This document shows positions 1-13,725 of a stretch of DNA of 20,081 bases, one piece after another. Every line of letters starts with the position of its first letter. Within the stretch, counting starts at the first letter, position 1. Source of the stretch: a virus; IMG/VR virus record IMGVR_UViG_3300025127_000384, positions 1 to 20,081 of that record; one strand, 5' to 3'. A program made the translations under genes and the position numbers. The notes under the pieces were generated by a model, which was given only the letters and a program-made list of their open reading frames with translations, had not been told where the DNA came from and searched no databases.

Positions 1-102
1 GTGTGGTTGATATGACCACTTAGTATTATAATCAGAGAGCAAACTCTCTAATATATTTTGATACGTTGGTGATATAAAATCATCGTAAACTTCAAACTTC
101 AT
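1..102 (-). CDS. N-terminus of an unidentified gene, cut by the window edge
   Basis: An open frame starts with ATG at 102-100 and stays open for 34 codons to the window edge, so only the N-terminus is visible. It begins MKFEVYDDFISPTYQN and continues through LLSDYNTKWSYQPH. The start overlaps the stop of the upstream carbamoyltransferase-like gene by four bases (ATGA), the same arrangement seen elsewhere in this cassette, which is the main reason to believe it. The opening pattern (a short strand, then an acidic D-D-F-I followed by a helix) resembles the N-termini of small 2OG-Fe(II) oxygenases such as the 166-residue neighbour, which begins MKPEIIDNFLD. No catalytic residues are in view, so the family is only a guess. 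A perfect AGAGAG/CTCTCT inverted repeat at about 35-50 lies inside the coding frame and is probably incidental. Confidence 0.7.
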   Translation of the reverse strand, partial: MKFEVYDDFISPTYQNILESLLSDYNTKWSYQPH

Positions 103-1205
103 TGCTTTGACCAGTATAAAAATTGAGCCAATCCAACAGAGATGCCTGCATCTTCACATAAAGGATCTACAAATAGTTTAACACCTTCGGGTAAGTGTTT
201 TAAGTATTCATAATTTGCCACACAATTCATAGCACAACCACCACTCAAAACAATATTTTTCTTTCCTGTAATTTGCAAAGTATCTAATATTGCTTTAGTC
301 ATCCACCTCTCAAAATCTTTCTGTAATCTCCAACACAAATTAGCAATTTTCTGAACATCTTCATTCCAATTTCTGTAGTCCCAATCTCTTGGTAGATAAT
401 CATAATCTATAAAGATACAACCATCATGTGTTCTATAGAAGAGTTTAGAATTAATCTCATAGTTATCAAAAACAAAAGGTTTTATATTGGGATCTTCTTT
501 ACCATATGATGCTAAACCCATTATCTTACCAGATCCCAACTGTCCAAATCCACAGTAAGCAGCAATAGAAGAATATACCATACCAATTCCCATAGGCCAT
601 TTTGTATGAGAATGTCTTTCCTTCATTAAGTCTGCATGATGTTTTGGTGTCTCTTGCTTTGAATGACATATAAGTTTAGCTGGATATTCCACCGTGTATA
701 TACTTGCTACTTCGTGCATATCAGATTCTTTTGTTGAAGGATTACCCATACCATCAACAACTAAAACTGCTGCATCTTTAAATCCAGAATTATAAAATCC
801 AGAAAAAGCATGAAATACATGGTGTTCGTCAAATCTAGTATCCGTCCATTTGTTTTCCCACTTTTCTGTATCTTCAGCCTCCATCTTTATTTTCTTTGAA
901 TGGATATCAGTAGATTTAGAAATAACAAAAGTTATAAAAGAATATACCTCTTGTTCAAATGATAGATGAAAGTCTTGTGCTAAGTCATTTACAGGCCAAT
1001 ACTTAATACCACTGAATCCAAAATCAATGTCTAATAATTCTGATGAAGGAAAATTATCTCCAAACAGTCTTTGGTATGCTTTTGATGGATAAACATCATG
1101 TTTTGCACGACTGCATCTTTCTTCTTGCATGATGTTTTTTATTTCTCCATCCTCTACTACACAAATAGAAGCATCATGAGATATCATTATTCCAACAGTT
1201 TTCAT
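99..1205 (-). CDS. Carbamoyltransferase N-domain protein (NodU/TobZ family, stand-alone)
   Basis: This 368-residue protein matches only the N-terminal, ASKHA-fold domain of NodU/CmcH/TobZ O-carbamoyltransferases. That domain moves the carbamoyl group from carbamoyl-adenylate onto a hydroxyl acceptor. Visible family features are the start SHDASICVVEDGEI, an EERCSR motif near residue 29, the metal-site motif HHVFHAFSGFYNSGF (H128 and H132), VVDGMG (D151), GKIMGLASYGKE near 226, VLSGGCAMNCVANYEYL near 319 and CEDAGISVGLA (D352). All predicted metal ligands are kept. The protein then ends at residue 368, just where full-length members continue into a C-terminal YrdC-like domain that makes carbamoyl-adenylate. 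It therefore looks like a clean single-domain version, not a frameshifted relic, because no C-domain remnant follows. The start overlaps the upstream oxygenase stop by one base (TAATG). It may depend on the full-length paralogue at 2175-3977 for activated carbamoyl; that dependence is inference. Confidence 0.85.
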   Translation of the reverse strand: MKTVGIMISHDASICVVEDGEIKNIMQEERCSRAKHDVYPSKAYQRLFGDNFPSSELLDIDFGFSGIKYWPVNDLAQDFHLSFEQEVYSFITFVISKSTDIHSKKIKMEAEDTEKWENKWTDTRFDEHHVFHAFSGFYNSGFKDAAVLVVDGMGNPSTKESDMHEVASIYTVEYPAKLICHSKQETPKHHADLMKERHSHTKWPMGIGMVYSSIAAYCGFGQLGSGKIMGLASYGKEDPNIKPFVFDNYEINSKLFYRTHDGCIFIDYDYLPRDWDYRNWNEDVQKIANLCWRLQKDFERWMTKAILDTLQITGKKNIVLSGGCAMNCVANYEYLKHLPEGVKLFVDPLCEDAGISVGLAQFLYWSKQ

Positions 1206-1705
1206 TAGAAAAAATTAAAGTTGATATTAAATCGTCCCATAGCATCCGTAGTATTAGTGGAACGATGTTTAACACTAGGATCGAATAAAAATAATCTATT
1301 CTCAACACTATCTATTTTAGTGCCATCTTCAAATTCTGTAAAGCCGTTACAGGTATTCAATGCAAAAATAGCGCCCTGATGACTGAAATCTTGGTCAGTA
1401 TGATAGGGATGCTTGTGAAAAGTTTCACAATAAGGATAAAAGTTTACTTTAACCCTAAGCATAGTTTTATACTGACAGGCTAAATGAAATTTAGGAAGAA
1501 AAACGTCTTTAATGACACCCCAAGACTCATCGACTGGTTCGTCATTTAGATAGATCGTTTTAACAGAATAATAATTCCAATGAGGAATTTCTGTTTCCTC
1601 TCCAGAAGCGCCTGGGATAGGACTGTATTCTAGATTACTGAAAGCATTTTTAACATAATCAAACTCTCGATGATCTAAAAAATTATCAATTATCTCAGGT
1701 TTCAT
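1205..1705 (-). CDS. 2OG-Fe(II) oxygenase-like protein (prolyl hydroxylase type)
   Basis: This 166-residue protein has the layout of a small 2-oxoglutarate- and iron-dependent dioxygenase. The HxD iron motif is H102-T103-D104 in PYHTDQDFSHQ, the distal histidine is H147 in DPSVKHRST, and the 2-oxoglutarate-binding arginine is probably R158 in AMGRFNINFNFF. The strand pattern before and between them (RVKVNFYPYCE; IFALNTCNGFTEFEDG; NRLFLFDPS) fits a double-stranded beta-helix core of usual length. Such enzymes hydroxylate proteins, small molecules or nucleic acid bases; the substrate is unknown. The ATG overlaps the stop of the preceding gene by four bases and the gene's own stop overlaps the next start by one base, so it is likely made in coupled translation with the carbamoyltransferase-like genes on both sides. 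It may hydroxylate a target that is then carbamoylated, which is inference from context. Confidence 0.8.
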   Translation of the reverse strand: MKPEIIDNFLDHREFDYVKNAFSNLEYSPIPGASGEETEIPHWNYYSVKTIYLNDEPVDESWGVIKDVFLPKFHLACQYKTMLRVKVNFYPYCETFHKHPYHTDQDFSHQGAIFALNTCNGFTEFEDGTKIDSVENRLFLFDPSVKHRSTNTTDAMGRFNINFNFF

Positions 1706-2175
1706 CTTAGATTACCCGACAATACACATCTACCTTGATGATTACTAGGAGGTACGCAATGTGGGAGATCTTTATCCCATACCATACAAATTCCTTGATT
1801 TGCATCGAAAAAAGTTGGTTCAGTTGTTTCTGGATCTTCGCTAAAATATATTGACGAACTGTTTTCTGGAACTTTTATATAATAAACAAAAGAATATTTT
1901 ATATCTTTCTCACTATTATGTGCATGCCATTTAATACCACCACCATCACGATACCAAACACCCCATAAATTTTCCAAAGTAGAGTCTGTAGTTTCTTCTA
2001 CCCACTTTATAAATTTTCTTATTTTCGGTGGATAATCATTCCATTTTGCTATATGACAATTCTCTGATCTTTCAAGATAACTATCAGGCACAGACGTAGT
2101 AGCATTAAGAATCTCTACCTCTAATTCACTATGGTCTTCTTGATATGGATACTCGTATTCTTTTACTTCTCTCAT
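1702..2175 (-). CDS. Small cupin / 2OG-Fe(II) oxygenase-like protein with an HxH motif
   Basis: This 157-residue protein carries a cupin-like pattern typical of small phage 2OG-Fe(II) oxygenase homologues: LWGVWYRDGGGIKWHAHN, then YSFVYYIKVP, then ICMVWDKDLPHCV and GRCVLSGNLR at the end. The likely metal site is H84 and H86 with H139, and R149 could bind 2-oxoglutarate. The second ligand of the proximal motif is thus His (or N87 next to it) where canonical enzymes have Asp, so activity as a standard dioxygenase is uncertain. It could be a chlorinase-like, non-hydroxylating or structural cupin. Its ATG overlaps the TGA of the full-length carbamoyltransferase by one base (TGATG), and its TGA overlaps the next ATG by four bases. 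No signal peptide or membrane segment is seen. Confidence 0.7.
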   Translation of the reverse strand: MREVKEYEYPYQEDHSELEVEILNATTSVPDSYLERSENCHIAKWNDYPPKIRKFIKWVEETTDSTLENLWGVWYRDGGGIKWHAHNSEKDIKYSFVYYIKVPENSSSIYFSEDPETTEPTFFDANQGICMVWDKDLPHCVPPSNHQGRCVLSGNLR

Positions 2176-3977
2176 CAGTTCTTTACTTCGATCATAAGAC
2201 CATATTCAGGCAGATAGAGGTATTCTATCAAACTGTTTGCAAGAGTCCTCAGAGCGTCGTCTAGGGTCTCTACAAGAGGTTCTCCGCCTAGGTTGAAGGA
2301 TGTATTAAAGATAATAGGACATTCTGTTTTCTCATAAAACTTTTTGATTAAATTATAGTAATGAGGATTGACTTCTTCTGTAACTGTTTGGATTCTACAT
2401 GTATCATCAACGTGAATGATTGCTGGAATCTTTTCTTTGATTCCTTCCTGACATCTAACAGCATACATCATAAATGGTGTCTCATCCATTCCACGAAGAT
2501 CAAACCATTCGTGTACATGTTCTTTTAATATTGATCCAGCAAAAGGTCTGAAATACTCACGACGTTTTACTGTATTGACATGATCCTTTCCTTTTGGATC
2601 TCTTGGATCATACATGATAGATCTATTACCTAGCGCTCTAGGACCTGCTTCTGATTTACCTTGGAACATTGCAACAATATTCTTCTTAGTAATTAGATCA
2701 ACTACATCTTCGTGTGTGGCCTCAAAGATTCTAGTTGCATCATAGTAATTTGCAAGATCTGTAATGTACTCAGTATCATAGTCGTACTTAGGTCCATAAT
2801 ATAAATCAGTAATCATAGGTTTGATCTCCTTGTCTTTTGTTACTTTATGATAGTGCCAGTATGCAGCACCGATAGCTGTTCCAGCATCATTGCTTACTGG
2901 TTCTACGAATAGATTGATACCCTTATCTTTTAGTTGAGGAAGATACCAATAGTTTGCAACACAGTTCAATCCATATCCACCAGAAAGAACTACATTTTTA
3001 TTACCACTCATCTCAACTGCTTTGAAGATAAGATCCAATACCATAGATTGAGATTCAGTTTGAATTGCATAGGCCAGGTCTCTACGATTATCTAACTGAG
3101 TTATATCTTTTACTGTACTCGGATCTTGAGGTTCTCTTAGTTCTAAGAATCTACCTTTGTTTACGATTGCACCGTTAGGATAGGTAGGCACAATAAGATC
3201 TCTGTTAGTAGTAGTCCAATCACTTCTACCATCATAGTTTGTGTAGATATCTGGAATCTCACTATTCTCTTTTCCGTATGGGAATAGTCCCATAGTCTTA
3301 CCAGCTTCAATAGGAGCCCATCCACAATATTGTGTGACTGCCTCATATGCTTTTACAATACCAGCAGAGTCATCTAATATTAATTCATGAGATCCCTCTT
3401 CTTCTTCCCTATCGGAAGTAAACTCTTTAATTCTTACTGAACCCCAAGGACCTCTACCTCCTTGATGTTTGTATAAAGTTTTAAAATTATCAGGATAAGC
3501 ACAATTAATAATAGTTTCTAATTCCCATGTCATCTCCTGTTCACCATCAATCTGCATAGGAATGAATGTCCCTGCACCATCTACAATAACAGATACAGCA
3601 GACTCAAATCCAGATCTATAGAAAGCACAAGCAGAATGAAGTTTATGATGGATATGACTGTAATCTACAACTTGAGGATGTTTATAGACATCTTCTTTAC
3701 GATCAATGAGACCTAGTTTTCTTGCAAGAGCAACGTAGATAGGTTCTCCTGTAAAATCATTTCTCCCAGCCTCATCTAGAGGTTGTGTATGTGCAACCAC
3801 AAGATAGTCAAGTCTATCGGTATAATCCAATATCTTGATCATGGAAGCCATAGGACCTCCATCATATTTCTTTCTAGATAATCTTTCCTCTTCAATAGAG
3901 AAAACTAATTGTCCATCTCTCAGTAAGCATACACCAGAGTTGTGTCCTCTAGCAATTGCTGCAATCCACTGTGTCAT
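2175..3977 (-). CDS. O-carbamoyltransferase, full length (NodU/CmcH/TobZ family)
   Basis: This 600-residue protein has both domains of the family at about the usual length. The N-terminal ASKHA-type domain (about 1-385) shows ARGHNSGVCLLRDGQL, EEERLSRKKYDGG, the metal motif HIHHKLHSACAFYRSGF (H110/H114), VIVDGAG (D133), AGKTMGLFPYGKE, VLSGGYGLNCVANYWYL and SNDAGTAIGAAYW (D364). The C-terminal YrdC-like domain (about 390-600) shows the signature GKSEAGPRALGNRSI at 440-454, then RREYFRPFAGSIL and PIIFNTSFNLGGEPLV. Known members use carbamoyl phosphate and ATP to form carbamoyl-adenylate and transfer the carbamoyl group to a hydroxyl of a sugar or antibiotic. A phage enzyme of this family acting on 5-hydroxymethylcytosine has also been reported, as I recall. 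The start is one base after the glycosyltransferase stop (TAATATG), so translation is probably coupled. The acceptor here is unknown. Confidence 0.93.
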   Translation of the reverse strand: MTQWIAAIARGHNSGVCLLRDGQLVFSIEEERLSRKKYDGGPMASMIKILDYTDRLDYLVVAHTQPLDEAGRNDFTGEPIYVALARKLGLIDRKEDVYKHPQVVDYSHIHHKLHSACAFYRSGFESAVSVIVDGAGTFIPMQIDGEQEMTWELETIINCAYPDNFKTLYKHQGGRGPWGSVRIKEFTSDREEEEGSHELILDDSAGIVKAYEAVTQYCGWAPIEAGKTMGLFPYGKENSEIPDIYTNYDGRSDWTTTNRDLIVPTYPNGAIVNKGRFLELREPQDPSTVKDITQLDNRRDLAYAIQTESQSMVLDLIFKAVEMSGNKNVVLSGGYGLNCVANYWYLPQLKDKGINLFVEPVSNDAGTAIGAAYWHYHKVTKDKEIKPMITDLYYGPKYDYDTEYITDLANYYDATRIFEATHEDVVDLITKKNIVAMFQGKSEAGPRALGNRSIMYDPRDPKGKDHVNTVKRREYFRPFAGSILKEHVHEWFDLRGMDETPFMMYAVRCQEGIKEKIPAIIHVDDTCRIQTVTEEVNPHYYNLIKKFYEKTECPIIFNTSFNLGGEPLVETLDDALRTLANSLIEYLYLPEYGLMIEVKN

Positions 3978-3978
3978 A

Positions 3979-5220
3979 TTAAATAGATTTCTTTTCTATA
4001 GTAATTGAGTTTTCTTTGTCAGATTTTAGTAAACTTTTAATTTCAGATTGAAATCCTTTTTTACTTTTTGGTTTCTTCTTAGTGTCCATAGTAAAACTAG
4101 GTTTAGGAGCACCAGTCTGTAAAGGATTGGGAGCAGCTGCACCTGTAGGAGCCCAATTTGCAGTAGGTAAGTTATTCAAAGTTGATTGCATTGGTGATGC
4201 AATCGCTGGTTGTTGATTGGGAGGACAAGATTGTCCCTGCTGCTGTTGTTGTGGAGGAACAAAGTTACCTGTATATGTTTTTGGTTTACCTAGTCTCTTT
4301 CTACATGATGCAATAACTTCATCAATTTGTTTCTTACTTAGTTCCATTGATTCGTCATTGAAACGATCAACCCTTTCATCCATTGCAATTCTGATTGGTG
4401 CATATTCTCTACGACCATCACCCACATCAATAATATCAAAATCTTTGAGGCCTGGATAACTAATATTTTCTGGATATGTAGAACCAACCACAACAGTTGC
4501 AGTTTTATCAAATGCTCTTGCAATATGTTGACCCATACTATCACATCCTAAGAAATGATCTGCAACATCAATGACAGAAGCCCATATTCTCATGTCTGAT
4601 ATTTGAGGTCTTGCAATAGGATATTTCTCTTCATTCTCCTCAGTTGGAAAATGAATCTCGCTCATAACTACCACTGCATAGTCTTTCTTGAGATTATTAA
4701 TTACGTCTACTACTCCTGTAAGAGACATACTTCTAGAAGTTGGATCTGCAATAAACTCCCCCATCTGTTCAACAGATCTACCAAATGGTTGAACTACAAT
4801 TACTTTATCTTTTTTTGTTGTTGCTTTAATTTCTTCAACTATATTATATCCAGCAATAGCCTCTGACTTATTAAGATGAACTGTAGGTTTAGGAAGTTCT
4901 CTGGGTTCATCTAACCCATTGATCTCCATGTCATACGCTTGTGCTAGACTACATTTTTGATTGTAATAGTGCCATACTCTGTATGGTTCTGGACTCTCGC
5001 AATCTCTGTGTTTAATATGTTCTTGAAATACTCTTTTATGCCAGTGGTCGTAGACCTTATCATCTAATGTAGGATGTCCTTTGAAGAAATCAGTACCACC
5101 CTCACAAATGATAACAAAATCATCATGAGTCTCAGCATATTTTTCAAATGCTGGTATTGAACTTATTACTCTCCCCGCCCCACCATTGATGAAGAATGCT
5201 TTTGATCTCATAGTTTTCAT
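3979..5220 (-). CDS. GT9-like glycosyltransferase with a low-complexity C-terminal tail
   Basis: Residues 1-310 resemble glycosyltransferase family 9 (heptosyltransferase-like, GT-B fold). The N-terminal loop is FFINGGAGRVISSIPAFEKY at about 9-27. The C-terminal donor domain shows VIVVQPFGRSVEQMGEF near 140-155, then ADHFLGCDSMGQHIARAF at about 221-237 and ATVVVGSTYPENISYPG. These match the usual GT9 pattern of a nucleotide-sugar site with conserved Asp, Ser and Gly. From about residue 318 the sequence turns into a disordered-looking tail: a run of five Gln at 324-328, Pro/Ala/Gln-rich sequence to about 375, then a basic Lys cluster near 380-391. Such a tail is unusual for GT9 enzymes and may tether the enzyme or bind nucleic acid or virion protein, which is a guess. 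M1 at 5220 follows AGGA by 3 nt; M4 at 5211 is an alternative start. The donor and acceptor are unknown. Confidence 0.75.
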   Translation of the reverse strand: MKTMRSKAFFINGGAGRVISSIPAFEKYAETHDDFVIICEGGTDFFKGHPTLDDKVYDHWHKRVFQEHIKHRDCESPEPYRVWHYYNQKCSLAQAYDMEINGLDEPRELPKPTVHLNKSEAIAGYNIVEEIKATTKKDKVIVVQPFGRSVEQMGEFIADPTSRSMSLTGVVDVINNLKKDYAVVVMSEIHFPTEENEEKYPIARPQISDMRIWASVIDVADHFLGCDSMGQHIARAFDKTATVVVGSTYPENISYPGLKDFDIIDVGDGRREYAPIRIAMDERVDRFNDESMELSKKQIDEVIASCRKRLGKPKTYTGNFVPPQQQQQGQSCPPNQQPAIASPMQSTLNNLPTANWAPTGAAAPNPLQTGAPKPSFTMDTKKKPKSKKGFQSEIKSLLKSDKENSITIEKKSI

Positions 5221-5238
5221 AATTCCTATAGTATATAG

Positions 5239-5898
5239 TCACATAAAAAATACCTGTGCCAGACGAGGATGTTCCTTAAACATCGTTCGATTTATGTCTG
5301 CTCCGTGGGTACATTTGGCTTCATATAATAACATTCTATTATATTTCATCTCACTTGTAAAGGTAATATCTTTTTTTATGTCATATTCACCATAAGCGTG
5401 ATCTTCCATATATTTGTAAAACTGTGTGCCACCTTCACATTCCTCTGGTTTATTCAAATAAACTAGTGCAGCCCAACTAGAATCTGTATCTTTATGGTGA
5501 GTATAACAATAGACAGTCTTAGTAAATCTTTCATTTATATCTTCATTAGTTGTATGATTGACCCAGAACTTTTGATTATCCCATCTGTAGTCAAACATCC
5601 CTTCACCAAATTCAAGATTAGTCCACTCTGGATGTTGGCAGAGTTCTTTGAAAACTGGTTTCAAATTTTCAATCATGTCTGGTCTATCTTCAACAACTCT
5701 CGTTCCTATAAGACCACCACAATGTTCTTTGTCATTTGTCCTTTCACATGACAGAGCATAGTCTCTAACTTCATCTGGATTTTTGTAGAAGTCATCTATA
5801 ACAAATACTTTCCTCCAGAAATATCCTTGGTCAGTAAATTTTGCATAATCGTAGCAACGTTGTATGTGTGAAATTTTTATGGGATTTACTTCAAACAT
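5239..5898 (-). CDS. DUF6445-like 2OG-Fe(II) oxygenase
   Basis: This 219-residue protein fits the DUF6445-type branch of 2OG-Fe(II) oxygenases common in marine bacteria and phages. The core motif is YCYTHHKDTDSSWAALVYLN, giving an HxD site H135-K136-D137, followed by ECEGGTQFYKY. The distal part is YNRMLLYEAKCTHGADINR with H198, and PRLAQVFF with R212 as the probable 2-oxoglutarate ligand. The N-terminus (VFVIDDFYKNPDEVRDYAL) is the usual 'FYxnPdeVRdfAL' opening of this group. The ATG lies only 5 nt after the U-tract of an intrinsic terminator, and the only plausible Shine-Dalgarno sequence, GGGGA, sits inside the terminator stem. The gene is first in the enzyme cassette and is followed 18 nt later by the glycosyltransferase. 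The substrate is unknown. Confidence 0.82.
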   Translation of the reverse strand: MFEVNPIKISHIQRCYDYAKFTDQGYFWRKVFVIDDFYKNPDEVRDYALSCERTNDKEHCGGLIGTRVVEDRPDMIENLKPVFKELCQHPEWTNLEFGEGMFDYRWDNQKFWVNHTTNEDINERFTKTVYCYTHHKDTDSSWAALVYLNKPEECEGGTQFYKYMEDHAYGEYDIKKDITFTSEMKYNRMLLYEAKCTHGADINRTMFKEHPRLAQVFFM

Positions 5899-5958: not shown

Positions 5959-6744
5959 TTACATTGAAGATGGTGGTTCCCATGCTTGTCCACTTTCTGA
6001 ATCAGGATCTCCTTGATGAGGAGGATCTTGGAACCCAGGCTCTATTGGGAACATCATGTCAGCAAAGTTAGGATGTACTCCAGCAGCAATCATTTTGTTT
6101 GGAAGATCTCTTAACTGTTGACGATATGTTTTCCACTGTTCTTTAAGTGCATCAGGCATATCTTCTGCAATCTGACCATCAGTATTAGCAAGAACACTGT
6201 CTCTATGTTTTCTAACATGATCCCATGTCTTATCCTCATCAACACCATTTAACTTTTCTCTAGGTGTAAAGTTACCAATAGTGATGTCATCAGGTCCAGC
6301 ACTGCCAGGATTTGCAACTCTGATAGTATCATAATTATAGAAATCATCAGGGAAGATAGTTGAAGAATATGTAAACTGAGGGTATACACTTCCGTCTACT
6401 GCTGGAGAGCCAGGATGGTTTGTATCTGTACCAGCACCTCTGTCTTCTTCTTTCTCGTTAACAACAGGTCCTCTTAACTGACAGATGAGTGTGTGCAAAT
6501 CAGATTTAGCACAATCAACTTCGTACCACTGAACTACGTCAGCTGGTTTTGGACGACCATCTGCGATGTCATCTTCTGTTAGAGGTCCATATACCTCTTT
6601 TCCTTCTGCATTGATTTGCAGAAAAATCTTGTCTGGACCATCATAAGTTTGGTCTCTCTGGTTTCCATCAGATGTTGAGTGATCTGTAAGGAAAGCGTTC
6701 GGAAGATTTAACTTCCAATTGTGTGAAATAATCTTTGTTGCCAT
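5959..6744 (-). CDS. Tail-associated protein with a phage tail assembly chaperone C-terminus
   Basis: This 261-residue protein carries near its C-terminus the pattern RKHRDSVLANTD (178-189), then EDMPDAL, then WKTYRQQLRDLP (204-215). That is the recognisable signature of the Phage_tail_APC family (tail assembly chaperone: R..RD..LA.TD ... W..YRQ.LRDLP). Residues 1-95 form a separate region (KIFLQINAEGKEVYGPLTEDDI, then VVQWYEVD) of unknown role. The tail after 225 is rich in Pro, Asp and Glu. In many phages this chaperone-like module follows a tail fibre gene and helps its assembly; here it follows the cysteine-rich trio, so it may assist those proteins. The ATG at 6744 is chosen because a late promoter lies just upstream, with GAAGA about 8 nt and AAGGAG about 19 nt before it. 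The only other in-frame ATG (6816) lies upstream of the promoter, within the bases covered by the terminator flank. Confidence 0.75.
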   Translation of the reverse strand: MATKIISHNWKLNLPNAFLTDHSTSDGNQRDQTYDGPDKIFLQINAEGKEVYGPLTEDDIADGRPKPADVVQWYEVDCAKSDLHTLICQLRGPVVNEKEEDRGAGTDTNHPGSPAVDGSVYPQFTYSSTIFPDDFYNYDTIRVANPGSAGPDDITIGNFTPREKLNGVDEDKTWDHVRKHRDSVLANTDGQIAEDMPDALKEQWKTYRQQLRDLPNKMIAAGVHPNFADMMFPIEPGFQDPPHQGDPDSESGQAWEPPSSM

Positions 6745-6776
6745 TTTGGATTTCTTCGGGTTTACTCCTTCGGCAC

Positions 6777-6784
6777 TATTTATA
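6777..6784 (-). promoter_or_regulatory. T4-type late promoter TATAAATA
   Basis: The minus strand reads TTTATAAATAGTGCC, an exact match to the T4 late promoter octamer used by T4-like phages with a gp55-type sigma. Transcription would begin roughly 6 nt downstream near 6771, giving a leader of about 27 nt before the ATG at 6744. The octamer overlaps the end of the U-tract of the preceding terminator, so one transcript ends where the next begins. Confidence 0.8.
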
Positions 6785-6811
6785 AAAAAAGAGGGTCTAT
6801 AACCCTCTTTT
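6784..6811 (-). terminator. Intrinsic terminator after the cysteine-rich trio
   Basis: On the minus strand AAAAGAGGGT pairs perfectly with ACCCTCTTTT (10 pairs) around the 5-nt loop TATAG, and is followed by a run of T leading into the late promoter. It lies 20 nt beyond the stop of the last cysteine-rich gene. It is the strongest hairpin I found in the window. Confidence 0.92.
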
Positions 6812-6831
6812 GACAAATTTTCTTGTTCGGT

Positions 6832-7620
6832 TTAGACGTATGTGATTTTAACAAGTCCAGATCCACCTTGTCCACCTTGTCCACAACATCTTCCACAGTA
6901 GTTACTGTTTGCACCTTGGCCGCCGTGTCCATATGGAACTGTCCAACAACCACAACGCATCCAACACTGTCTTTGTCCGTAGGAAACACCAAGAGTTCCG
7001 ATAAATGGAGCACCTGTTGGCATACCTTCGTTATAGAAGCAGTGACAGTTGAATCCGTCAGGTCTGTATGAGTTACCACCGTGGTTGCCCATTCCGAAGT
7101 CTCCTCCGTGAGCGCCAGGTTGCATACAACAAGTATGGAATTCTGAATAACAGTTTGATGACCAGTCACCAGTTGCACAACCTCTAACACCACCTAAGGC
7201 ACAGAAGTTAGAAAGGTTATATCCATTTACATAGGAGTTACATCCGCAACACCCTGTACACTCTCTTGAACAACATCTGTAAACACCAGCAGCACACACA
7301 GTATATTGACATCCAGAATTAGTTGAAATAGTTTTTGTATTATAGTATCCACCACCAGCACCGTGCCAGTTTTGACATCTGTTACATGAACATGCACCGT
7401 GTCCGTTACCTCCAGCACCCCAGATTTCCCAAGTAATTCTCGAAACTCCTGTAGGAACAGTCCAGTTGCAACAGCAGCCAGGTGTACAATAACATGGATG
7501 ACCATACACCCATTTCACACACCAGTTTGAGAAAGTACCAGCCGTAACCGCAGACGCTGGAACTGTAGTGTCCTGTATCTGGGAGTTTATTACTTTTTTA
7601 TAACTCGAATAAGAAGCCAT
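6832..7620 (-). CDS. Cysteine-rich glycine-rich adhesin-like protein, third of three tandem copies
   Basis: This 262-residue protein has 30 Cys. An N-terminal MASYSSYKK is followed by a divergent segment. Then comes CYCTPGCCCNWTVPTGV leading into WEIWGAGGNGHGACSCNRC, the opening of a glycine-rich domain ('vPtGVt...WGAGGnG') known from phage tail fibres and tip proteins. Further blocks are VYRCCSREC, SYVNGYNLSNFCA, a variable region rich in Gly, His and Asn (about 150-215), then CWMRCGCW and YCGRCCGQGGQGGSG, ending in LVKITYV. The ATG at 7620 is preceded by AAGGGA at 5 nt, which overlaps the TAA of the upstream paralogue; a longer in-frame reading to 7686 would lie inside that paralogue and is not used. 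It is the last gene before a strong terminator. Likely role: virion surface or receptor binding, stabilised by disulphides or metal. This is inferred from domain and position; no function is proven. Confidence 0.85.
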   Translation of the reverse strand: MASYSSYKKVINSQIQDTTVPASAVTAGTFSNWCVKWVYGHPCYCTPGCCCNWTVPTGVSRITWEIWGAGGNGHGACSCNRCQNWHGAGGGYYNTKTISTNSGCQYTVCAAGVYRCCSRECTGCCGCNSYVNGYNLSNFCALGGVRGCATGDWSSNCYSEFHTCCMQPGAHGGDFGMGNHGGNSYRPDGFNCHCFYNEGMPTGAPFIGTLGVSYGQRQCWMRCGCWTVPYGHGGQGANSNYCGRCCGQGGQGGSGLVKITYV

Positions 7621-7628
7621 TGTTTCCC

Positions 7629-8423
7629 TTAGAAGTATGTAATTTTGACGAGTCCGCCACCGCCAGTACCGCCTTGTCCGCAGCACCTACCACAGTATGT
7701 AGACATCGCACTTTGTCCACCATGACCATAAGGTACGATCCAGCAACCACAACGAATCCAACATTCTCGGATAGACTGTGTTACTTGTGTACCAATCAAA
7801 GGTGCAGAAGTAGGTCTCTGACCATAGTGATAACAGTGACACCAACCTCTATAGGTATCGTGTCTAGATGTAGACCAGATTGAACCGTGGTTTCCAATTC
7901 CAAAGTCTCCTCCGTTTGTTGAAGGACCTCTGCAACATGTGTTCTCAGATGAACAACCAGTTGACCAACTTGTGTTTGCGTTACCTCTACATCCTCCGAT
8001 AGCACAGAAGTTTGATAAGTTGTATCCATTTACATAGGATGCACAACCTACACAACCATAACATTCTCTAGAAAGACATGGATAAACAGCAGCAGCACAA
8101 ATACTATATGAACAACCACCATTTGTTTGGATCATTTTGGAGTTGTAGTATCCTCCACCACCAGATTGGTAGTGTTGACATCTGTTACATGAACATGCAC
8201 CAGTACCATTTCCACCAGCACCCCAAGCCTGAATCCACATGTTGTTAACACCAGTTGGAACAGACCAGTTGCAACAACAGCCTGGTGAACAACGGCACAT
8301 TGTACCGAATACCCATTTTACGCCGTAAGTACTATTAGGAGAACTACTAAAACTAGAAGCGTTAAGAGCATTAGACTCTAACTGATCTCCGTGAATTTTT
8401 TTGTATGATGAATAACTTGCCAT
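7629..8423 (-). CDS. Cysteine-rich glycine-rich adhesin-like protein, second of three tandem copies
   Basis: This 264-residue protein has 27 Cys and aligns end to end with its two neighbours. It shares the N-terminus MASYSSYKK with the downstream copy. Shared blocks are CRCSPGCCCNWSVPTGV, WGAGGNGTGACSCNRC, SYVNGYNLSNFCA, ECWIRCGCW and YCGRCCGQGG, ending LVKITYF. It is the most diverged copy: it lacks the early Cys near residue 34, has TMCRC where the others have HPCYC, and PCLSREC where they have RCCSREC. The stretch between about 150 and 215 differs almost completely from both neighbours. The gene starts 13 nt after the stop of the upstream paralogue with only a weak ribosome site (AGG about 12 nt upstream), and ends 8 nt before the next ATG. 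Duplication followed by divergence of the middle segment is the simplest reading. Confidence 0.85.
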   Translation of the reverse strand: MASYSSYKKIHGDQLESNALNASSFSSSPNSTYGVKWVFGTMCRCSPGCCCNWSVPTGVNNMWIQAWGAGGNGTGACSCNRCQHYQSGGGGYYNSKMIQTNGGCSYSICAAAVYPCLSRECYGCVGCASYVNGYNLSNFCAIGGCRGNANTSWSTGCSSENTCCRGPSTNGGDFGIGNHGSIWSTSRHDTYRGWCHCYHYGQRPTSAPLIGTQVTQSIRECWIRCGCWIVPYGHGGQSAMSTYCGRCCGQGGTGGGGLVKITYF

Positions 8424-8436
8424 TTCTGTTTAATAC

Positions 8437-9225
8437 CTAGACGTAAGTAATTCGGACAACTCCAGAGCCGCCTTGACCGCCCTGTCCACAACAACGACCA
8501 CAATATGAAGTCATTGCTCCTTGTCCACCTGTTGCATATGGAGCAGTCCAACAACCGCAACGAATCCAACATTCGTTATGATTCATCTCAACACCTTCAG
8601 ATGTTAAGAATGGAGCACCAGATGACATTTCATTAGTAACTGCACCAGTACAGTGACAATCCCAGTGACCCGACCAACCTTTTTGGTGAGGAGCCATTGC
8701 GAAGTCTCCACCCCATGTTCCAGGCGATACGCAACACCAGTTAGTTGAAGTACATCTGACTGACCAGTCTGGGTTTGCACAACCTCTTGCACCACCGTAA
8801 GCACAGAAGTTACCTGAGAGATTGTAACCGTTTACATAAGATGAACATCCTTGACATCCATTACATTCTCTTGAACAACATCTGTAAACTCCACCAGCAC
8901 ATACAGTATATGAACAACCACCACTTGTAGCGATTGTTTTAGTATTATATGCACCACCAGCAGCACCTCTGTAGTGATGACATCTGTTACAAGAACATGC
9001 TCCGTGTCCGTTTCCTCCAGCTCCCCACATTTCAATGGTTAACTTTCCTACTCCAGTTGGAACTTGCCAGTTGCAACAACAGCCAGGACTGCAATAGCAG
9101 GGATGTCCATAGAACATCTTTACACAATAATCAGGAGTCACACCCGCCACTAACTTGCCAGGGTCTATAGTCCCAGCAAGCAGCATGTCAGAACTGATTT
9201 TTCTATATGATCTATAGTTGGCCAT
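8437..9225 (-). CDS. Cysteine-rich glycine-rich adhesin-like protein, first of three tandem copies
   Basis: This 262-residue protein has 29 Cys. Its order of blocks is: N-terminus MANYRSYRKI; HPCYCSPGCCCNWQVPTGV at 41-59; WGAGGNGHGACSCNRC at 67-82; GGCSYTVCAGGVYRCC and SRECNGC at 102-124; SYVNGYNLSGNFCA at 128-141; a variable segment of about 175-218; and the conserved end ECWIRCGCW (218-226) to YCGRCCGQGG (241-250) and VVRITYV. The 'VPTGV...WGAGGNG' stretch is the start of a glycine-rich domain found in phage tail proteins. AGGA lies 6 nt before the ATG. It comes 51 nt after the large tail-fibre-like gene. No signal peptide or membrane segment is present, consistent with release and assembly by lysis. 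Function as a distal adhesin or host-range protein is inferred. Confidence 0.85.
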   Translation of the reverse strand: MANYRSYRKISSDMLLAGTIDPGKLVAGVTPDYCVKMFYGHPCYCSPGCCCNWQVPTGVGKLTIEMWGAGGNGHGACSCNRCHHYRGAAGGAYNTKTIATSGGCSYTVCAGGVYRCCSRECNGCQGCSSYVNGYNLSGNFCAYGGARGCANPDWSVRCTSTNWCCVSPGTWGGDFAMAPHQKGWSGHWDCHCTGAVTNEMSSGAPFLTSEGVEMNHNECWIRCGCWTAPYATGGQGAMTSYCGRCCGQGGQGGSGVVRITYV

Positions 9226-9276: not shown

Positions 9277-12200
9277 TTAGATGGAGAAGATTCTCCAACC
9301 GTATGTATCACCTGAGTAGATGAGTGTGAACGCAGCACTTTCAGTTGAAACTGTTAGGTCAGCACCATCACCTTGAATGTTCTTACCGTTTCTTCCAACC
9401 ACAAGTGCGTTAGAGTCAAATGTCTTAGCAACATCTAAGAATGTAATCTCAGCACCTAAGTCTGGAGATGCAGGGAGTGTTAGAGTTATCTGTCCACCAC
9501 CTGTGTTAACGAAGTAGGTTCCGCCAGATAGAACAGATCCACTTGATGAAACTGTACTGTATGACTTAACACCTGGCTGAATCCATGCAGATCCGTTGTA
9601 GTACTCAAGAGCACCGAGGTCTGTGTTGAATCTTAACGCACCAGTATTGAACTCTTCGTCAATACCGCCAGGTCTTTGAGCAGTTGTACCTACAGGAGGT
9701 GTCATTGCCTTAGTACCCATCTTCGCACGAGTTAAGAAACCTTTAACTGAGAATTCAGTTGGACAAGCAGTGTTTGAGTTACCAGCAAGTGTCTCATCAG
9801 ATGAGAATTCGTTGATCGCTTCACCGACCTGACCACCAATCGCACCAAGTCTCAATTCTGTCAAACCAGAAAGGTTGAACGCAGAAGCATCCAATGTAGC
9901 ACGACCAGTCAACTGGTCAACGGAGAAGAAGTCTCCAACTCTGAAGTTACCACCTTGGTCGGTTGATACGAAGAACACCTTACCAGGCCCGAATACGTTA
10001 GTTTCTTGACCTTGAATTACGTTTGCCAAGTTAACGTTTGGATAACCAGTCTCTGTCTTGTTACCAGTACCAACTGCGAGGAAGTCATGTCCTGTTAGTC
10101 TTGCCTGTGAGAATAGAGTTCTGATCTCGATTGTAGATCCGTAACCTATGTTATCTGGATCTATGTTTCTAGTATCCCATGTTCCTCTTGACTTCTCAGG
10201 AGAGATTGTAAGAGTTGCACGATCATTGAATACCGTTTGTATACCAGCCGTCGATCCAGCCTGCCATTCAAAGTAAGTGGCCGCCGTCGAGACGTTGGTT
10301 ATTGTATTGATGATGTAGAACCTATCGTCTGCACCATATAGTGATGTTTGGAATCCAATAGCATCACCGATTAGAAGTGTACTTGATACTTGGTCAACTT
10401 CTAGAAGTGTACCTTTTTGTCCAGTTGTTGATGAGGCAGCAGCCGCAACTTGGATTGAACCGATACCAGAACTTTGTTCTGCACCAGCACCGAACCAGAC
10501 GATTTCACCGTCTACGAATCCAGTTGTACCGATACCAGCATTACCGTAACCAGACTGATACTTGAAGTAAATCTTATCAGCAGAAATCTGGTCGTTTAAC
10601 AGCCATGCAGTCGCCTTAGAGGTCTGACCGAACATTGTAGCACCTAATGCCACTGTTCCACCTTTACTTGTTCCTAGAACTGTCATCATGTCACCAAAGA
10701 CCTTTGCAGTTCTTGGAGTTTCATCAGTTGAGAAACCAGATGAGATAACACCGTAGTCTCCGTAAGAGTTGTTTCCACCAACACCCCTGATTCTTGATCC
10801 ACCACCTGAGTAGTAACCCCACTTAGCGTAGTATGTGAAACAGGAAACGATTTCAGCGATTGCACCCTTATCAAGAATGTAACCAGCACCGTCAGATGCA
10901 ACGTGGGTGAACGCATCGAACACCATTGATTTCGCACCTTGGGTGTGTACTCCACCATCGATGAATACACCGACACCACCACCACCGAATCTGCCACTCT
11001 CAGTTGCAGGGTCGGAGAAACAAGTACAGTCTTTAACGTAAGGTGACTTGTTATCGATTGGTGAATCTGGGTTCAAGGAGATGAATACACCAGCAGCAGT
11101 TGTACCAATACCAGTTCTTAGGTTAGCATTGTCAAGAACTAGAGGAGCGTTAGGATCATAGTAGAATCCTTCCATTCCTTTCATGGAGATCGCCTGAATT
11201 GTTGTAGCATCAGACATCTTGAACATGTGACTCCTGTTGTTAGGAGTTACAGAATCATCAGATGTTCCATCTTTAGGAAGAACCTGTGAACCTCTAAGTG
11301 CGTTACCGATAATAGAAGTGAAAGGAGGAACTTTAACTGGTAACTGTTCGTAGAACTGAGACGCAGATAGTTTCAAGATAGCAGGTGTTAGGTCTGTTAC
11401 CTTACCGCCTTCAACGTATGTGTGGTCGATAGTTGAAATACCAACGTTACACTTGAAGTTATCGATATCAGGAACTTCTAGAACCTCATAGTAAGACTTG
11501 GATACCTTATCAGGATACTTGGTTGTTGTTAGACCAACAAAGGCAGTACCACCAGAAACATAGAGGTAATCAGTAGTTGAAACACCTACGTTTAGTGTGA
11601 TTGAGTTAGAGTCGGGTACACCTTGAACCAAGAACTCATAAGTACCTTGAGTATGTACAGCAGGGAACTTACCAGTAATTGTCTGGTTGTCAGATGCAGT
11701 ACCAACGTTAATTGTGATTGTGTTGGTTGTAACAGCACTAATGTTTAGAGCAGTGTTGTATGCAGGGTCTGGGTTTCCGTCTCCAGCAACAGCACGAGGA
11801 TATGGGTGATCAGTTGTATAACCGTCCATTGAACAACGGAATGTCATACCTTCTGTCTCTAATCTTACAGATGTACCAACTGTTAATGAGTGAGCACCGA
11901 TTGTACAAACCATGTCACCAGTTGCTTGGTTGTAAGAAACCGCAGTTGGTTGATGGTTAACGATTGGAGAAGGTCCAACGTTTACAGTAAATGTATCAGT
12001 TGTTGTACCTGTAATTGCTAACTGTTGTCCAGCTGCAGGGTCTTTTCCAGCTCTAGGATATGTCTTCTGAGAACCATTATTGTTCATCGTACAGGTGAAC
12101 GTAAATGCGTTGTTAGCGATTGTAACCTTATCAGAAGTTGATAAACTATGACCAGCAAGGGTCATTACGAAGTTACCGTTTGAAGGATCGTATGTTGCAC

Positions 12201-13725
12201 TTGTTGGAGTTATACTTGCTCCACCAACAATTGTAACTCCGTTTGCAGCACAACTGTTGAATGTGTGAGTGTAGTCACCACCAGATTGGATAGCGTTTGC
12301 TAATGCACTTCTGAATGTATGGGCAAACTGAGCAGAACCTGTGTATTGAACACTTAAGTTTCTGATTCTAACTTTTTCGCCAATTCCAACTTCGGGAGCA
12401 GCACCAAGACCAATAGCAGTAATCGTTGCAAGACCAACTGCCTTGTTGTAAGTCATACCCAAGACGTTGAATACGTTACCTCCAGATAGACACTCAAACT
12501 GAATATCTTGTAACTGAACGAAAGTACCAGTGTTTAATAGACCGTGACCAGGCGCAGTAACTGTTGCCACACCAGTGGAAGCAGTATACACCATATTGGT
12601 GATGTCTGTTTGAGGACGAGCAGATTGGCAAGCCTGTTTAATAGTCTTAAACGCCAAGTTAGGTGCAAGACCGTTGTTTGTGTCGAGTCCGTCTTCGGAG
12701 TCAACATAGTAAATTCTAGTCTGGTTTCCTACAATCTCGTAGCCAGGCATTCCATTTGACTGAACTGCGAGTGCGTAACCTGTAGATCCAATACCGATTC
12801 TTACGTTACCTGAGTTGTAACTTAGTAAGTCACCCTTAGTATTAAGAGCAGCGGATGAATCTCCTGATGCAAGCACTTCCCAGAATGTTCCGATTCCAGC
12901 AGTAGGAACGACGTTCTTGTGAGAGTTACCAACAGAAACATATGAATCTGAACCGTATCTTGCAACGTGGCCTGGATGATAGTTGAAGGTAGTGGAGAAG
13001 CCACCTTTAAATTCAAATCCTTTAACAAGTAAATCCCATACTTCTTCACCATTGTATGATTGAGGTTGAATTGATCCTACACCAACTTGTAACGGAGAAA
13101 CGTTAGTTGTAACACCAATCTTATGACGGTAAATATTACCACCATACTGAGTAAGATCACCTCTGTAGTATGAACCCTCGATATATGTTGAAGCCGCACC
13201 AGCAAGACCGTCAGATAAGATACTCCATTTTGCAGAAGGGTCTGTAGTTACACCCAAATACTGTGGAGGTTGAAATCCAGCAAGTGATGTTGTTAAAGCA
13301 ACATAAGATGAACCGTTGTAATTTACAACGTCACCTGATTGATATTCTGTTCCGTTGTCCCACTCACCCTCGTTTTGAAATCCCTTTACATACTCAGTAA
13401 CTTTCGTTTCATCGATGAAAGTTCCTGCTGAAGTATGTGCAGTAGTTACTCTGTAAACAACGTTACCGAATTTTACTAAGTCGTTAATACGATAGTAAAC
13501 TCCAGAAGCCCATTGTCCTTTTTGTTCTAGACCTTCAATATGGATGTTCCATTTGGAAAGGTCGTTAGAATAAAAGTCACTGACGTTAGCGGTTGACGTG
13601 TGGTTTTCGATTGCCACATAAGTATTACCACCAAACTTGGCGATATCGTCAATTAGGTAGCTTTTGGATACTGCCCAATCACCTGTCCAGTTGAATTTTA
13701 CTCTTCCAAGTCTAAACTCAGCCAT
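9277..13725 (-). CDS. Large tail-fibre-like structural protein with carbohydrate-binding-like repeats and a beta-helix
   Basis: This 1482-residue protein has a modular layout. Residues 10 to about 290 hold five copies of a 45-60 residue repeat of the form W....Y..gDlV.yGg..Y.a...h, like the small chitin-binding (CBM5/12-type) modules. At 340 a new region opens with YYVDSEDGLDTNNG and FKTIKQA, a common start of pectate-lyase-like beta-helices. Two homologous inserts follow at about 506-585 and 593-676 (each with 'ATYDPSNGN / VSYNQATGD', 'HSL', 'TF.C.M', 'YPRA', 'TVNVG / TINVG'), then helix-like sequence from about 800 to 1000. Near the C-terminus are TTAQRPGGIDE, GALRFNTDLGALEYYNG and a final beta domain (about 1390-1482) ending YGWRIFSI. 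This domain order is common in cyanophage tail fibres and large virion proteins. GGAG lies 6 nt before the ATG. The 51 nt between its stop and the cysteine-rich genes contain no convincing terminator. Confidence 0.85.
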   Translation of the reverse strand: MAEFRLGRVKFNWTGDWAVSKSYLIDDIAKFGGNTYVAIENHTSTANVSDFYSNDLSKWNIHIEGLEQKGQWASGVYYRINDLVKFGNVVYRVTTAHTSAGTFIDETKVTEYVKGFQNEGEWDNGTEYQSGDVVNYNGSSYVALTTSLAGFQPPQYLGVTTDPSAKWSILSDGLAGAASTYIEGSYYRGDLTQYGGNIYRHKIGVTTNVSPLQVGVGSIQPQSYNGEEVWDLLVKGFEFKGGFSTTFNYHPGHVARYGSDSYVSVGNSHKNVVPTAGIGTFWEVLASGDSSAALNTKGDLLSYNSGNVRIGIGSTGYALAVQSNGMPGYEIVGNQTRIYYVDSEDGLDTNNGLAPNLAFKTIKQACQSARPQTDITNMVYTASTGVATVTAPGHGLLNTGTFVQLQDIQFECLSGGNVFNVLGMTYNKAVGLATITAIGLGAAPEVGIGEKVRIRNLSVQYTGSAQFAHTFRSALANAIQSGGDYTHTFNSCAANGVTIVGGASITPTSATYDPSNGNFVMTLAGHSLSTSDKVTIANNAFTFTCTMNNNGSQKTYPRAGKDPAAGQQLAITGTTTDTFTVNVGPSPIVNHQPTAVSYNQATGDMVCTIGAHSLTVGTSVRLETEGMTFRCSMDGYTTDHPYPRAVAGDGNPDPAYNTALNISAVTTNTITINVGTASDNQTITGKFPAVHTQGTYEFLVQGVPDSNSITLNVGVSTTDYLYVSGGTAFVGLTTTKYPDKVSKSYYEVLEVPDIDNFKCNVGISTIDHTYVEGGKVTDLTPAILKLSASQFYEQLPVKVPPFTSIIGNALRGSQVLPKDGTSDDSVTPNNRSHMFKMSDATTIQAISMKGMEGFYYDPNAPLVLDNANLRTGIGTTAAGVFISLNPDSPIDNKSPYVKDCTCFSDPATESGRFGGGGVGVFIDGGVHTQGAKSMVFDAFTHVASDGAGYILDKGAIAEIVSCFTYYAKWGYYSGGGSRIRGVGGNNSYGDYGVISSGFSTDETPRTAKVFGDMMTVLGTSKGGTVALGATMFGQTSKATAWLLNDQISADKIYFKYQSGYGNAGIGTTGFVDGEIVWFGAGAEQSSGIGSIQVAAAASSTTGQKGTLLEVDQVSSTLLIGDAIGFQTSLYGADDRFYIINTITNVSTAATYFEWQAGSTAGIQTVFNDRATLTISPEKSRGTWDTRNIDPDNIGYGSTIEIRTLFSQARLTGHDFLAVGTGNKTETGYPNVNLANVIQGQETNVFGPGKVFFVSTDQGGNFRVGDFFSVDQLTGRATLDASAFNLSGLTELRLGAIGGQVGEAINEFSSDETLAGNSNTACPTEFSVKGFLTRAKMGTKAMTPPVGTTAQRPGGIDEEFNTGALRFNTDLGALEYYNGSAWIQPGVKSYSTVSSSGSVLSGGTYFVNTGGGQITLTLPASPDLGAEITFLDVAKTFDSNALVVGRNGKNIQGDGADLTVSTESAAFTLIYSGDTYGWRIFSI

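Follow-up and report, generated by a model that had tools for sequence, protein, structure and literature searches.

A candidate virion-decoration cassette that places a GT9-like glycosyltransferase and carbamoyltransferases beside cysteine-rich tail adhesins of cyanophages

Heptosylation, carbamoylation and virion glycosylation are each known from separate systems. TibC heptosylates autotransporter adhesins with ADP-heptose, using D110 as its catalytic base (PMC4358343); Pseudomonas lipopolysaccharide (LPS) contains carbamoylated heptose, with WapO as the putative transferase (PMC8005017); and mycobacteriophage Che8 and others have glycans on virion proteins and encode glycosyltransferases, although these are capsid glycans and the parts of that account drawn on here mention neither a dedicated sugar-nucleotide pathway nor carbamoylation (PMC11256854). 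In the window analysed here, the complete 20,081-base IMG/VR virus record IMGVR_UViG_3300025127_000384, we found a cassette in which genes for a glycosyltransferase of predicted GT9-like fold, two carbamoyltransferases (CT1 and CT2) and several 2-oxoglutarate (2OG)-Fe(II) oxygenase-like proteins follow tail-tip genes. The window corresponds to positions 87,417–107,060 of Synechococcus phage S-SSM7 (Kyanoviridae, Lipsvirus; ~86% identity, 95% of the length), and the cassette itself extends past the contig end. We consider it reasonably probable that this cassette is a virion-decoration module that heptosylates and then carbamoylates tail adhesins.

All cassette genes lie on the minus strand, in the order 219-residue oxygenase, glycosyltransferase, CT1 (600 residues), oxygenases of 157 and 166 residues, CT2 (368 residues) and the start of a seventh gene, the next oxygenase; the six complete open reading frames (ORFs) are separated by gaps of 18 and 1 nt and overlaps of 1, 4 and 1 nt. 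The original prediction, a note made on this DNA from its letters alone, had claimed this packing and these lengths, and both are confirmed by the coordinates; its identification of a GT9-like enzyme, a 600-residue carbamoyltransferase and a 368-residue N-domain likewise holds by profiles and models. The dN/dS values against S-SSM7 (CT1 0.07, glycosyltransferase 0.11, 219-residue protein 0.17, CT2 0.19, 157-residue protein 0.25) show that the cassette genes are under purifying selection and therefore are not chance ORFs. They also bear on the idea that such genes are functionless hitch-hiking or stuffer DNA for headful packaging, which was raised for cyanophage LPS genes in the parts of Sullivan et al. 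(2010) drawn on here (PMC3037559); given these ratios, a gene order kept across deep divergence and intact active sites, we give that idea very little credence.

In the decoration that we envisage, downstream phage genes, seen in relatives and off this contig, would make ADP-heptose, which the GT9-like enzyme would use to transfer heptose to the Cys/Gly-rich tail adhesins encoded just upstream. CT1 would form carbamoyl-adenylate and O-carbamoylate the adhesin-bound sugar, CT2 would take up CT1-made carbamoyl-adenylate and modify a second position, and the 2OG oxygenases, with a tryptophan halogenase in relatives, would add lineage-variable modifications to the same adhesins. If true, this would amount to a new form of chemical decoration of the viral part that contacts the host: marine phages that are widespread, and with them unrelated phages of Vibrio and Aeromonas, would glycosylate their receptor-binding tail tips, phages would bring a whole sugar pathway where the host cannot supply the sugar, the cyanophage 'LPS genes' that in 2010 were regarded as possible stuffer DNA would gain a function, and carbamoyl-sugars, perhaps also S-linked sugars, would join virion chemistry. 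The proposal names a concrete acceptor family, testable in phages already cultured.

Linkage of the cassette to heptose genes

In S-SSM7 the genes past the point where our contig ends encode first a 2OG oxygenase (annotated 'denV'), a tryptophan halogenase and HldE-adenylyltransferase-like and PfkB/HldE-kinase-like proteins, and next a methyltransferase, a short HAD protein ('phosphoheptose isomerase'), a cupin ('cysteine dioxygenase') and another 2OG oxygenase. Beyond this run the coding strand changes, and a gene for an HldD-like epimerase and one for a DUF6445 protein ('minor coat protein') precede gp13/gp14. GT9, CT1 and heptose genes adjoin tail genes in phages Sf-FS3, S-CAM1, S-CAM3 and P-SSM2 too. 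Among IMG/VR loci with room, which are incompletely de-duplicated and mutually related, CT1 comes after GT9 in 136/136; the five heptose genes (HldE-kinase-like, HldE-adenylyltransferase-like, HAD phosphatase, PMI-like cupin resembling a sugar isomerase, and HldD-like epimerase) are all present in 27 of the 29 loci whose sequence extends 7 kb or more past CT1, and four of the five in the other two. Eleven further contigs, several of them lacking heptose genes within 6 kb, were searched over their whole length, and ten gave a clear HldD match; on contig G002 the sole HldD match was weak. The original prediction had suggested glycosylation, carbamoylation or both, an idea that holds up, and had named co-occurrence of these families in other genomes as a check, for which these counts give strong support.

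From this genomic linkage we infer that ADP-heptose is the donor of the glycosyltransferase. The LPS of marine Synechococcus WH8102 and CC9311 has been reported to contain neither heptose nor Kdo (PMC4515613), so that, on the literature for these two strains, a cyanophage would need an ADP-heptose pathway of its own. Clusters T4-GC304/305/307/308 are four of these heptose genes; the parts of Sullivan et al. (2010) drawn on here note that four of them occur together as 'LPS genes', either functional or stuffer DNA, and do not link them to a GT9 enzyme, a carbamoyltransferase or Cys-rich adhesins (PMC3037559). The annotations of several members of those clusters look wrong. In S-SSM7 and other cyanophage records the 'cysteine dioxygenase' is a PMI-like cupin and the 'phosphoheptose isomerase' a short HAD protein containing DxDxT. 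GT9–CT1 contigs were also met in metagenome-assembled genomes labelled Rhodobacteraceae, Euryarchaeota, Neomarinimicrobiota and others (L134–L142); as at least one of these contigs has gp13 adjoining the cassette, they are probably misbinned phage contigs.

The glycosyltransferase and its cysteine-rich neighbours

By its AlphaFold (AF2) model, the core of which has pLDDT mostly >85, the glycosyltransferase is a GT-B-fold enzyme of the GT9/WaaC/WaaF type. Its best PDB matches had Z-scores of 16.6–21.1 (GT9 3tov 21.1, WaaF 18.2, TibC 17.1, WaaC ~17) against at most 11.8 for UDP-GlcNAc 2-epimerases and other glycosyltransferases; plant NDH-complex subunits also matched, with Z 17–18. The sequence itself had no Pfam match, and PDB searches with it or its profile gave nothing useful. 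The enzyme shares with WaaC, WaaF and other GT9 LPS heptosyltransferases the D...H nucleotide-site motif (D227...H232), but its gene lies within a tail module and its host type is reported to lack LPS heptose. Like TibC and the other bacterial autotransporter heptosyltransferases (BAHT) it has a candidate adhesin partner; unlike TibC, whose extra 97-residue N-terminal beta-barrel is missing (the phage core begins near residue 5), it has no four-Cys iron-finger module among its conserved columns, and its candidate partners are Cys-rich phage tail proteins. The C-terminal 85 residues are disordered, with a short helix at the end; this Pro/Gln/Cys-containing tail and Lys-rich terminal helix (window positions 3982–4260, minus strand) occur in most cyanophage relatives, are missing from distant ones and may be a docking element.

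Counting as Cys/Gly-rich any protein with Gly and Cys contents of 12% and 4% or more, respectively, we found that 109/109 unique GT9 loci with sufficient sequence on the upstream side have one within 4.5 kb upstream of the enzyme gene, and that 0/77 have one downstream. The adhesin family so recovered comprises 308 unique proteins of 8–13% Cys, with several Cys columns 95–100% conserved and, in cyanophages, clustered CxC/CC motifs. S-SSM7 has exactly three Cys/Gly-rich proteins among its 189 ORFs, all adjoining GT9, and four whole GT9-less cyanophage genomes have none. Homology between these and Cys-poor adhesins rests on Pfam Gly_rich_2, which covers several GT9-side adhesins and Cys-poor adhesins of GT9-less phages, and on a Cys-masked hhalign profile comparison of the two groups (probability 97%); a direct HMM search of GT9-less genomes with the Cys-rich adhesins gave no significant match. 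Cys makes up 9.6–12.1% of the 12 Gly_rich_2 domains measured beside GT9 in cyanophages, and 4.6% of an incomplete one in Aeromonas phage HJ05; in the 16 domains measured away from GT9, including paralogues in the GT9-positive phages S-CAM1 and P-SSM2, it accounts for 0–3.1%.

A similar arrangement was seen around distant GT9-like relatives (~27% identity) in HJ05 and in the Vibrio Schitoviridae-like phages SBP1 and the D505 and K479 groups, all located between tail genes; scans of viral contigs found no relatives of the HJ05 enzyme and two close relatives of that of SBP1. The gene abutting each of these (gaps of ~8–12 nt) encodes a tail protein with the highest Cys density of any ORF in the region examined: HJ05_49 has 23 cysteines (rank 1/52), SBP1 gp067 41 (rank 1/46), and the D505 and K479 proteins 41 and 39. 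In the glycosyltransferase-positive D505 and K479, Cys is kept at 11 of 14 SBP1 positions (N-terminal 264 residues), and the aligned segments of gp067 homologues from four Vibrio phages lacking the enzyme have few or no cysteines, with none at a position facing a cysteine of SBP1. It was in the data that we first noticed the Cys association; D505/K479, the homologues in phages lacking the enzyme and the Gly_rich_2 survey, on which it was then checked, were examined after the idea had been formed. Neither HldD nor a carbamoyltransferase was found in HJ05, SBP1 or D505, as expected if the host supplies the sugar, since Vibrio and Aeromonas hosts make ADP-heptose. The HJ05 genes are all annotated as hypothetical; on inspection of their sequences, HJ05_52 resembles a tail sheath and HJ05_55 a tape measure protein (L132, 9624–11228 and 12377–15001).

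Several observations weigh against heptosylation of the adhesins. The GT9 assignment is marginal by sequence (TIGR02201 0.0095, 15 bits against a cut-off of 170; for the HJ05 relative PF01075 0.0043, 16.8 against 22). The HldD-like, HldE-kinase-like and HldE-adenylyltransferase-like proteins of relatives match NCBIfam models (TIGR02197 8e-63, TIGR02198 2e-39 and TIGR02199 2e-29, respectively), but all the heptose enzymes score under the curated cut-offs. No GmhA orthologue was found among the heptose genes of relatives, in which the genes annotated as GmhA-type isomerases carry the HAD DxDxT motif (TIGR01689 8.5e-6), so that the isomerase would have to be the PMI-like cupin. Most loci descend from one cyanophage ancestor, and the counts given above are therefore not independent events. 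The catalytic Asp of known heptosyltransferases (D13 in WaaC, D110 in TibC) is replaced by Arg17; this Arg is invariant in all relatives examined, distant ones included, its correspondence to the Asp coming from a GxGD/GxGR motif alignment with WaaC, and the chemistry may thus differ.

Finally, in P-TIM68 and S-SM2 the heptose genes lie within polysaccharide-type clusters without GT9 or carbamoyltransferase, so such genes can serve a surface glycan too. This leaves room for a cassette that alters the host surface, adding heptose and carbamoyl groups to a host glycan or LPS and blocking superinfection, as has been suggested for the LPS genes of cyanophages and pelagiphages. GT9 enzymes classically act on LPS, host-surface modification is the published view of phage LPS-like genes (PMC7029224), and Sullivan et al. 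(2010), in the parts drawn on here, left the function open (PMC3037559). We nevertheless think it unlikely, as the GT9–CT1 pair lies within the tail block and always near Cys-rich adhesins, the distant Vibrio and Aeromonas enzymes are likewise encoded among tail genes, with neither heptose nor carbamoyltransferase genes, and homologous tail proteins are rich or poor in Cys according to the presence of the glycosyltransferase.

If tail adhesins are indeed the acceptors, the association of their cysteines with the enzyme suggests S-glycosylation, and the Arg in place of the catalytic Asp might be accommodated by a thiol acceptor that needs no strong base. We tentatively put forward, as an open possibility, that these GT9-like enzymes are cysteine S-glycosyltransferases that place heptose on tail-tip thiols, where it is then carbamoylated, the Vibrio and Aeromonas phages using host ADP-heptose with no carbamoylation. 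Our literature search found no paper on S-linked or Cys-rich phage fibre glycosylation. In a variant of adhesin glycosylation that differs in the acceptor residue, and whose probability overlaps with that of the general proposal, the cysteines would bind metal or form disulfides, their enrichment being a separate adaptation, and the enzyme would act on Ser, Thr or Asn of the same adhesins. The clustered CxC/CC motifs of cyanophage adhesins could bind metal, and TibC-type enzymes modify autotransporter adhesins for which Cys enrichment is not described; however, the cysteines of SBP1 gp067 are single and scattered over long stretches, and Cys richness recurs in two types of tail protein only where the glycosyltransferase is present, which makes this variant somewhat doubtful.

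Two carbamoyltransferases and the question of the target

CT1 resembles TobZ, NodU and GdmN in having both a Kae1-like N-domain with metal ligands and a YrdC-like C-domain; its PDB matches are VtdB, NovN and TobZ, it contains the GPRALGNRS and HHxxxH motifs, and the CT1s linked to GT9 cluster together in the tree (support 85/67). It can be compared with Pseudomonas WapO, a putative carbamoyltransferase of a heptose pathway, although there the sugar belongs to the LPS core (PMC8005017) and CT1 is tied to a tail module.

CT1 also shares its family with a metagenomic phage carbamoyltransferase of 5-hydroxymethylcytosine (5hmC), an activity established in vitro; the same paper reports glycosyltransferase neighbours for unmodified contigs (PMC8670742). 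Carbamoylation of 5hmC or another DNA base by the cassette is nonetheless highly improbable. The C-domain of CT1 is 23% identical to that of the proven 5hmC enzyme, which lies far from CT1 in the tree, on a long branch of unsure placement; CT1 retains G421 and R423 of the non-DNA class and has Met at position 408 instead of W408 (TobZ numbering, inferred from the motif); no ThyA/dCMP-hydroxymethylase-family gene (PF00303) was found in the nine relatives searched; and the cassette's neighbours are glycan and tail genes. Of the candidate targets that the original prediction had listed, nearby virion proteins are thus clearly favoured by the Cys-rich adhesins beside GT9, and DNA is disfavoured by the CT1 residues, the tree and the lack of PF00303.

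The AF2 model of CT2 matches the N-domains of TobZ, GdmN and NovN (Z 26–27), and its HHxxH, DG and D352 are invariant in 15 aligned sequences. Unlike TobZ, NodU and GdmN, it has no adenylating C-terminal domain, which seems unusual; this domain is missing in the window and in 31/31 strong relatives, all of them stand-alone N-domains with CT1 on the same locus. A truncated pseudogene was considered and is ruled out by the dN/dS of CT2, its kept ligands and these relatives. In TobZ-type enzymes the C-domain forms carbamoyl-adenylate and the N-domain transfers the carbamoyl group, so CT2 would need the adenylate from elsewhere, most simply from CT1; S-SSM7 has no stand-alone C-domain partner for it, all three C-domains lying within full-length enzymes. 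At another locus (L082, 7662–9395) a CT2 relative of 39% identity continues into a full C-domain, a hint that stand-alone CT2 arose by loss, or the reverse. In S-RIM44 and S-SCSM1 (L091, 7998–9619; L092, 8193–11775) a carbamoyltransferase is split into C-domain and N-domain genes adjoining ThyX, and in S-SCSM1 this split pair occurs twice consecutively.

Oxygenases and neighbouring genes

The original prediction had called three cassette proteins oxygenase- or cupin-like; the enzyme class stands, and by their ligand motifs all three resemble 2OG oxygenases. The HxD...H facial triad of 2OG-Fe(II) enzymes is present in the 219-residue protein, where H135xD137...H198 is invariant in 24/24 relatives, and in the 166-residue protein, whose HxD...H...R is conserved and whose relatives occur in 221 phage records, with no homologue at the corresponding place in S-SSM7. 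The 157-residue protein instead has an HxH...H...R variant, with ligands kept in 33 relatives. The seventh gene reads MKFEVYDDFISPTYQ... and starts in the same way as S-SSM7 SSSM7_124, which is annotated 'denV' (endonuclease V) yet is a 2OG oxygenase by Pfam (PF13640 5e-9). Similarly, 'denV/DNA endonuclease V' and 'minor coat protein' entries in S-SSM7 and other cyanophage records look like misannotated 2OG oxygenases.

The original prediction had suggested that hydroxylation precedes glycosylation, which would be a conceivable order; among relatives the oxygenases vary more than any other part of the cassette. Of 45 loci with 4 kb of sequence downstream, 41 have a tryptophan-halogenase-family gene within the cassette, at times in two copies (in S-SSM7, L004, at 23511–24998; in most IMG/VR loci downstream of CT1), and its product might halogenate the same adhesins.

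The cassette is preceded on the minus strand by a 1550-residue tail protein, a 1482-residue CBM_5_12 fibre, three Gly/Cys-rich proteins and a chaperone-like protein, in that order (Table 1). The 1550-residue protein is also found in S-SSM7, S-SSM6a, Sf-FS3 and, partly, S-SCSM2R; we considered it as a TibA-like acceptor and do not favour it, as it has few repeat-like motif matches and no periodicity and occurs in few GT9 phages.

Table 1. Coordinates of cassette genes and upstream tail genes in the window
Feature	Position	Strand	Matches and remarks
Start of seventh gene, 2OG-Fe(II) oxygenase	1..102	-	truncated by contig end; 4-nt ATGA overlap with CT2
CT2, stand-alone carbamoyltransferase N-domain (Kae1-like), without carbamoyl-adenylate-forming C-domain	99..1205	-	PF02543 (Carbam_trans_N) 1e-20
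2OG-Fe(II) oxygenase-like, 166 aa	1205..1705	-	phrog_274 2e-34; HxD...H...R
2OG-Fe(II) oxygenase-like, 157 aa	1702..2175	-	phrog_81 1.5e-16; PF13759 0.0028; HxH...H...R variant
CT1, full-length O-carbamoyltransferase (Kae1-like + YrdC-like), 600 aa	2175..3977	-	phrog_1601 4e-171; Carbam_trans_C 1.2e-59
Predicted GT9-fold heptosyltransferase-like glycosyltransferase, 413 aa	3979..5220	-	AF2 model; phrog_8954 5e-170
2OG-Fe(II) oxygenase, 219 aa, DUF6445-like, misannotated 'minor coat protein'	5239..5898	-	PF20043 2.4e-8; H135xD137...H198
Tail assembly chaperone-like protein	5959..6816	-	PF16778 1.8e-9; phrog_9740 6e-84
Cys/Gly-rich tail adhesin, ~30 Cys, Gly_rich_2, candidate acceptor	6832..7620	-	ATG start chosen
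Cys/Gly-rich tail adhesin, 27 Cys, candidate acceptor	7629..8423	-	
Cys/Gly-rich tail adhesin, 29 Cys, Gly_rich_2, candidate acceptor	8437..9225	-	
Tail fibre with carbohydrate-binding CBM_5_12 modules, upstream context	9277..13725	-	PF02839 1.2e-16, 3 stretches
Gly/Thr/Ser-rich tail protein, 1550 aa, scattered GSGT...SG motifs	14671–19323	-

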